Assembly (NCBI GenBank): GCA_021159235.1
Contig: JAGGSF010000093.1
Span: 1-28,971 of the forward strand
Origin: Deltaproteobacteria bacterium
GTDB taxonomy: Bacteria; Campylobacterota_A; Desulfurellia; JAGGSF01
Direction of reading: 5' to 3'
Length of the DNA stretch: 28,971 bases
A program made the translations under genes and the position numbers. A model generated the notes under the pieces. The model did not search any database. It worked only from the letters and a program-made list of their open reading frames with translations, and was not told the origin of the DNA. This document shows, in pieces, positions 18,375-19,588 of this stretch. Each line of letters begins with the position of its first letter. The first letter of the stretch is position 1.

Positions 18375-18899
18375 TTAAAAACACAGAATAGATTCATATC
18401 CTGCCTCAATATAAGCCTTTCTTAAGCTGTCTATTACTTCTTTAGAGGCTCCTAAATAAACCAATTTTTGCGCATCCAGAAGAAATCCCTTATTTATGCA
18501 GGCCTTTATTAGAGCGTCTACTTCTTGAGTTGAAAGCTTTCTTTTTCTCATTTTAAGCACTTCTAATACCTCCGGAACCCACCCGTTTCTAATACAATCT
18601 TTTATTAACAGTTCATATCTGTCCTCTGATGTTCCCAGCTTAGCTGCATCTATAGCTGCTCCAATCCATCCCTTGCTTCTATAGAAATCCACCATGGAGT
18701 CAATTTCCTTTAATGGAATATTTAAGATTTTCATTACACTTTTTACTTCTTCAACCTGTCCAGCGTTGATATAAGCCATTGTTAAGAAGATCTTCATCTC
18801 TTTTGAAGCCCCCAGCTTGGCTTTCCTTAAAGCCTGATCGAGATTATTTCTTTCTATATAGGCTTTTACCAGTGAATCAATCTCTTCTGTTTTACTCAT
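18375..18899 (-). CDS. unrecognised alpha-helical repeat protein
   Basis: I do not recognise the family. The 174 residues are almost entirely repeats of 28-32 residues: about 6-34, 35-65, 66-94, 95-126, 127-154 and a shorter last one at 155-174. Odd units share the pattern D-S/A-L/M-h-K-A-x-I ... A-x-K-h-x-x-LG-A/T-S (KLGASKE, KLGTSED, YLGASKE). Even units lack that ending. This looks like helix-turn-helix solenoid repeats related in style to PPR or TPR units. There is no signal peptide or membrane segment. It leads the addBA operon with three bases to addB, and AGGAGAT precedes its ATG. A role with AddAB, such as binding protein or nucleic acid, is only an inference from position. Confidence 0.75.
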   Translation of the reverse strand: MSKTEEIDSLVKAYIERNNLDQALRKAKLGASKEMKIFLTMAYINAGQVEEVKSVMKILNIPLKEIDSMVDFYRSKGWIGAAIDAAKLGTSEDRYELLIKDCIRNGWVPEVLEVLKMRKRKLSTQEVDALIKACINKGFLLDAQKLVYLGASKEVIDSLRKAYIEAGYESILCF

Positions 18900-18928
18900 T
18901 TTAACTATCTCCTTATATTTTTTTGTTT

Positions 18929-18956
18929 ATCATAGTTCTTTCGTTATATTATTCAA
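18929..18956 (-). promoter_or_regulatory. promoter for the helical-repeat/addBA operon
   Basis: On the minus strand, TTGAAT (18956-18951) is followed after 16 bases by TATGAT (18934-18929). This would give a leader of about 20-25 bases containing AGGAGAT before the ATG at 18899. Confidence 0.5.
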
Positions 18957-19045: not shown

Positions 19046-19588
19046 ATGGAGATGTGTGAAAGGATTAAATCCTTAAGAAAGAAGAAGGGTTATACTTTAA
19101 AGGCTTTAGCAGAAAGAGTGGGGTGTACGGATGCTTATATCTCCCAGATAGAAACAGGTAAAGCTGTTCCCTCTATCTCTATATTAAAAAAGCTGGCTGA
19201 GGCTTTAGATGAGGATATGAGGAATCTGATATGTGAGGAAAAAAGGGTAGATAAGATATCCCTCACTCCGGAAGAAAGAGCAAAGATCCTTTATCCAGGA
19301 AGCAGGATAAGGGCAGAACTGCTGGTTAATAAGATTTCAAACAAAGCCATGGAGCCCCTGTATAAGGTGGTACCTGTTGGCGAGGGCAGTAAGGGAGTAC
19401 ATCAACATGAAGGAGAGGAATTCGGTTATATACTGAAGGGTAGTCTGGAACTATGTGTAGGGGATCAGAAGGTGATACTTCATGAAGGGGATAGTTTTTA
19501 CTTCAATGCACAAAGACCACATTCCTACAGAAATGTGGGAGATAAAGATGTAGAAACAATCTGGGTTGTTTCACCGCCTGTATTATAA
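19046..19588 (+). CDS. XRE-family regulator with C-terminal cupin domain
   Basis: The 180-residue protein joins an N-terminal Cro/CI-type helix-turn-helix (about 6-61, with LAERVGCTDAYISQIETGKA) to a cupin_2 domain (about 105-177). The cupin keeps metal-type histidines and glutamates: HQHEGEEFGYILKGSLEL, GDSFYFNAQRPHSY. This architecture is known from regulators that sense small molecules such as amino acids, polyamines or sulfur compounds. The ligand and targets here are unknown. It is a single-gene unit, divergent from the addBA operon, so autoregulation or control of that operon is possible. Its stop TAA abuts the stop of rsmG on the other strand. Confidence 0.9.
   Translation: MEMCERIKSLRKKKGYTLKALAERVGCTDAYISQIETGKAVPSISILKKLAEALDEDMRNLICEEKRVDKISLTPEERAKILYPGSRIRAELLVNKISNKAMEPLYKVVPVGEGSKGVHQHEGEEFGYILKGSLELCVGDQKVILHEGDSFYFNAQRPHSYRNVGDKDVETIWVVSPPVL

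Follow-up and report, generated by a model that had tools for sequence, protein, structure and literature searches.

The AddAB helicase-nuclease is elsewhere a complete two-subunit enzyme that does without the protein described here, and the literature that we searched reports no AddAB subunit of the solenoid kind. The closest described solenoids belong to the TPR class, built from units of 34 residues, and the PPR class, whose 35-residue helix-turn-helix units stack in the same way. Most TPR-type solenoids are protein-binding adaptors. PPR proteins read bases through positions 5 (N/T/S) and 35 (D/N/S), with a hydrophobic sandwich residue normally at position 2. Ankyrin repeats have units of 33 residues with the ankyrin consensus. 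Orphan solenoids are not uncommon in operons. Here we describe a helical-repeat protein whose gene shares an operon with addB and addA in a Deltaproteobacteria bacterium; the window, i.e. the whole stretch of DNA analysed, comprises 28,971 nucleotides of contig JAGGSF010000093.1. The gene order is repeat gene, addB, addA, all on the (-) strand, with addA overlapping addB by 7 bases (Table 1).

Table 1. Features of the repeat gene and the adjoining addBA genes, in window coordinates.
Feature	Position	Strand	Evidence
Helical-repeat gene, 174 aa	18375..18899	(-)	ORF; orthologs 83-87% identical; dN/dS 0.13-0.18
Unit A1, residues 4-32, ends LGAS	18804..18890	(-)	anchored repeats; helices 3-16, 20-27
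Unit B1, residues 33-62	18714..18803	(-)	anchored repeats; helices 33-45, 49-58
Unit A2, residues 63-91, ends LGTS	18627..18713	(-)	anchored repeats; helices 65-76, 79-86
Unit B2, residues 92-123	18531..18626	(-)	anchored repeats; helices 92-105, 108-118
Unit A3, residues 124-152, ends LGAS	18444..18530	(-)	anchored repeats; helices 124-137, 140-149
Unit B3, residues 153-174, truncated, one full helix	18378..18443	(-)	anchored repeats; helix 153-166
Shine-Dalgarno AAGGAG for the helical-repeat gene	18909..18914	(-)	-8.2 kcal/mol to anti-SD
Promoter-like TTGAAT-16-TATGAT	18929..18956	(-)	not above chance
addB, 864 aa	15777..18371	(-)	PDDEXK_1 4.2e-33; AddB-type HMMs; no Shine-Dalgarno (SD energy +0.9)
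addA, 843 aa	13252..15783	(-)	UvrD-helicase 5.1e-42; Walker A, DEFQD, GDTKQSIY, FDYKT nuclease motif

The first-pass annotation had placed the repeat gene at the head of the addBA operon, three bases from addB and under a shared promoter. Its stop codon does lie 3 bases before the addB ATG, and the leading position is found in all three genomes that carry the gene. The shared promoter found no support: the sole upstream candidate on the right strand (TTGAAT-16-TATGAT) is not above chance (3 sites found in the region, 3.3 expected). The ortholog ORFs have a longer N-terminus, which contains the AAGGAG ribosome-binding site of an internal start; the conserved start is therefore near the window's own.

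The repeat ORF is a real gene under purifying selection, like its neighbours. Across the three species, dN/dS (NG86) for the repeat gene compares with 0.15-0.29 for addB, 0.11-0.12 for the neighbouring HTH-cupin gene and 0.14 for rsmG, and the repeat protein of the window is slightly closer to its orthologs in the other two species than AddB is to its own (80-81% identity). The gene is single-copy in its own genome. A search of 386 genomes (320 genera) with a profile of the three orthologous sequences found the gene in three genomes, all of the window's own genus. The class set held 25 genomes (a phylum search gave the same 25), and the other 22 yielded no ortholog. A protein search in 41 relatives likewise gave no homolog beyond the genus. 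Weak matches in G026, G024 and G011 were dismissed as chance, the ORFs reading as an M3-type peptidase, an ABC-transporter ATPase and a hydantoinase-like protein. Collections of phage, plasmid and viral contigs contained no homolog, and a GTDB contig scan returned as its sole match the known congener, Desulfurellaceae bacterium. As judged from these searches, the gene is confined to one small genus and is thus lineage-specific.

The protein is a three-fold superrepeat of A+B pairs, each of about 60 residues, with the last B unit shortened. Ungapped self-alignment scored 87 at offset 120, 74 at offset 59 and 46 at offset 61, against a mean maximum of 25.6 (sd 4.1) in 1000 shuffles, none of which reached 87. 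Offsets of 29 and 32 gave only 35-36. Strong signals near 60 and 120 and weak ones at the single-unit offsets identify the A+B pair as the duplicated unit. With the conserved Gly/Asn between the helices as anchor (residues 18, 47, 77, 106, 138 and 167), the units are spaced by 29, 30, 29, 32 and 29 residues. LGAS, LGTS and LGAS close units 1, 3 and 5 (residues 29-32, 88-91 and 149-152) and the motif is absent at the ends of units 2 and 4, in keeping with the earlier proposal that LG(A/T)S ends A units but not B units. The A units resemble one another (B62 scores of 47, 44 and 29 over 26 positions), B1 and B2 are weakly alike (B62 score 20), and over 21 positions the A/B labelling ranks third among the ten possible 3+3 splits. 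The six units in A-B-A-B-A-B order originally described are thus borne out as to order and, by the shuffles, as to repetition, but the sixth is cut short at 22 residues, and the alternation shows most strongly in the A+B superunit of about 60 residues, of which there are three copies.

Structure prediction bears out the alternating helical-repeat architecture. AlphaFold2, run on the three-sequence alignment, returned an all-helical model without strands in which eleven helices follow one another in solenoid order (pLDDT 92.0, pTM 0.79); with an ortholog as the query the same helices were obtained plus a short C-terminal one (pLDDT 89.4, pTM 0.77). In each run two of the five models were high and the others lower (72-80 and 55-72), a spread expected from the shallow alignment. 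Designed PPR and consensus TPR proteins led the Foldseek comparison with the PDB (E near 1e-3). VIA-align was led by plastid and maize PPR proteins, matched over the whole protein with Z 10.4-10.7 and rmsd near 7; for helical repeats, scores lower than about Z 13 can reflect no more than a common arrangement, and the assignment therefore extends to the TPR/PPR-like alpha-solenoid class and not to PPR membership. There was no Pfam ankyrin match, and viral ankyrin proteins aligned with TM 0.5-0.6 but at E of only 0.02-0.15. Within the limit set by the Z scores, the protein is confidently predicted to be a small, rod-like alpha-solenoid of paired helices, of TPR/PPR type, whose repeats are unusually short.

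The protein had been called unrecognised, and no family library names it: NCBIfam gave no match, PHROGs nothing better than E 0.046, and Pfam PPR (PF01535) scored 24.1 bits on the window protein, just below the cut-off of 25, with PPR matches in all three orthologs. No TPR model in Pfam fell below E 0.1 (TPR_19, E 0.12), and sequence searches of the PDB gave nothing significant. Nor did any known family of unrelated role match it with confidence, an outcome that would have spoken against a link to AddAB.

One Pfam model did exceed its curated cut-off. PF24409 (wHTH-PRTase associated domain) scored 30.6 bits against a cut-off of 27. We reject this identity, as the score sums three weak partial stretches, the best of which covers half of the model, and is driven by the repeats. 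The strongest family member examined (L034) is of phosphoribosyltransferase type, has an HTH-like segment at its C-terminus and gives no match with the repeat-protein profile; a winged helix is also at odds with a predicted solenoid that has no strands. PF24409 is a likely source of wrong annotation for this solenoid. Matches to PADLOC PRTase_III-A and PglZ were rejected as weak and partial.

Comparison with the two repeat classes bears on what the solenoid might bind. It has the stacked helix-turn-helix architecture of PPR proteins according to AlphaFold2, Foldseek and VIA-align, its A units have a PPR-like Gly at position 15 and Ala at position 20, and position 8 is hydrophobic. Unlike PPR units, however, its units are 29-32 residues long and remain under the Pfam cut-off. 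Consensus TPR chains, of the same solenoid class, are among its top Foldseek matches, and protein binding is the probable mode of action in common with them. The small residue of TPRs at position 8 is missing (V, T, V, I, I, R), position 20 has Ala in A units only and the units are shorter than 34 residues.

The residues by which a PPR protein would read bases do not fit the code. Position 5 is D, I, D (N in one ortholog), E, D, D; position 35 is S, P, S, S, S; and position 2, where a hydrophobic residue is expected, is polar throughout (E, E, K, D, Q, E). By unit type, A units have D at position 5 and S at position 35, whereas I, E or D occurs in B units. There are 14 K/R and 17 D/E on the first helices, and charges are mixed on both helix sets, so that no sign of a nucleic-acid face is seen. 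An RNA-binding PPR-type protein whose helices read bases would account for the near-threshold Pfam score, its recurrence in all orthologs and the PPR chains heading the structure lists, but the mismatches at positions 5, 35 and 2, the short units and the acidic excess on the first helices make it improbable. The first-pass annotation had also suggested that the protein might bind DNA ends or nucleic acid; the mostly acidic residues at the base-reading positions lend this no support. As for a DNA-end or nucleic-acid binding module within the AddAB complex, the operon position and the slightly basic character of the protein (pI 8.6-9.1) would suit it, yet with mixed charges on both helix sets and no match to a DNA-binding repeat family we give it the smallest probability of all. 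The polar position 2, the code mismatch and the 17 acidic against 14 basic residues together make a protein or peptide adaptor likelier than a nucleic-acid binder.

AddA and AddB themselves look complete from their sequences, with no missing part replaced. AddA is recognized by UvrD-type helicase and AddA/RecB-type models and carries the motifs listed in Table 1; AddB has LDYKT and the C-terminal cysteines. Replacement of a missing AddAB domain by the repeat protein was rejected, since the motifs of both subunits are present.

A further possibility is that the repeat gene serves mainly as a translational leader that loads ribosomes on addB. A strong Shine-Dalgarno sequence precedes the repeat gene, none precedes addB in any of the three genomes (+0.9 to +2.3 kcal/mol), and the spacing is short enough for termination-reinitiation (PMC10666635, PMC12548453). 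Against this, selection acts on the protein sequence itself, and one of the gaps is 19 bases; coupling is almost abolished at about 20 bases in one study (PMC10666635), while another puts the distance limit nearer 30 bases (PMC12548453). The addB of the class family f2 (L017, L018) likewise lacks a Shine-Dalgarno sequence, and no same-strand gene precedes it; the feature does not, therefore, tie addB to the repeat gene. We regard a mainly leader role as having little probability.

The link to AddAB lies in the position of the gene. All three orthologs lie directly upstream of addB in the same direction, with gaps of 3, 12 and 19 bases. At 40 addB loci outside the class, by contrast, a profile search of every upstream ORF gave no repeat-gene match better than E 0.24; the gene before addB was mostly addA and otherwise various. 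In the class relatives with upstream DNA examined, addB occurs without the repeat gene and is preceded by addA (family f3) or by a divergent PAP2-like gene (f2); the upstream DNA of f4 is too short to judge. With the gene absent at the 40 outside loci, at the class loci examined and in all genomes searched beyond the genus, a general AddAB accessory protein is not supported. Homologs that never sit near addAB had been named as grounds for abandoning the link; all of them adjoin addB, but with three syntenic close relatives this is a weak test.

The history of the neighbourhood qualifies the adjacency further. The window and L005 have in common the order yidC, mnmE, purU, rsmG, HTH-cupin, repeat gene, addB, addA, sucD, and because gene order is conserved around three close relatives, adjacency to addB is weak evidence of shared function. 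The HTH-cupin regulator (19046-19588, (+); cf. L042-L050) is found beside rsmG in 24 of the 25 class genomes, with 57-82% identity to the best copy. For most class members its place is between rsmG and a gene for a SatP-like (acetate/succinate) permease, usually just downstream of the permease gene, which the window locus lacks. We infer from this class-wide arrangement that addBA and the repeat gene came beside the HTH-cupin gene in this genus. Dedicated control of the operon by the divergent HTH-cupin gene was rejected, as that gene is class-wide and its normal neighbours are rsmG and the SatP-like permease gene. AddB of the window is 32% identical to proteins of G274 and G137 outside the class and 24-30% identical to those of f3 and f4 within it, a pattern that hints at transfer or replacement of addBA. 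Outside the class, the two addB genes closest to that of the window (L076, L078) follow a same-strand endonuclease III-like (nth) gene.

This setting gives weight to the view that the repeat protein is a passenger: a lineage-specific solenoid with an unrelated partner that came to lie before addBA after a rearrangement and has only the transcript in common with it. The neighbourhood is derived, the HTH-cupin gene in most of the class not being beside addBA; the repeat gene is absent at all the other addB loci considered; AddA and AddB carry their motifs; and in a small, syntenic genus the place of the gene need not be selected. Two points speak against it: all three species retain a tight spacing of 3-19 bases between the co-directional genes, and the genome has no second copy. 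We consider it a serious contender.

Our preferred reading, held tentatively, is that the repeat protein is a lineage-specific protein-binding adaptor of the TPR/PPR class that is co-transcribed with addBA. We place an AddAB adaptor only slightly above the passenger, and action on AddAB is possible; support for a role with AddAB is position alone. The protein would be made from the addBA operon and, in the manner of most TPR-type solenoids, may use one of its faces to hold a protein or peptide partner. Since it would be expressed with AddAB, the likeliest partner is an AddAB subunit or something acting with AddAB, and its role may be a lineage-specific tuning of assembly, stability or recruitment. 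The stronger proposal, that it is an undescribed third component of AddAB, a lineage-specific short-repeat solenoid which would bind to AddB or AddA and adjust break processing within the genus, we consider unlikely.

The fold class is thus known and the gene is real and lineage-restricted, while its role in repair is putative. If the protein does bind AddAB, this would show that an adaptor specific to one lineage can be added to a core repair nuclease. If it does not, it is a compact, self-contained solenoid of the TPR/PPR class, with a two-unit repeat of 60 residues, that current family models overlook, and such a two-unit solenoid would be useful for testing how repeats of this kind arise.
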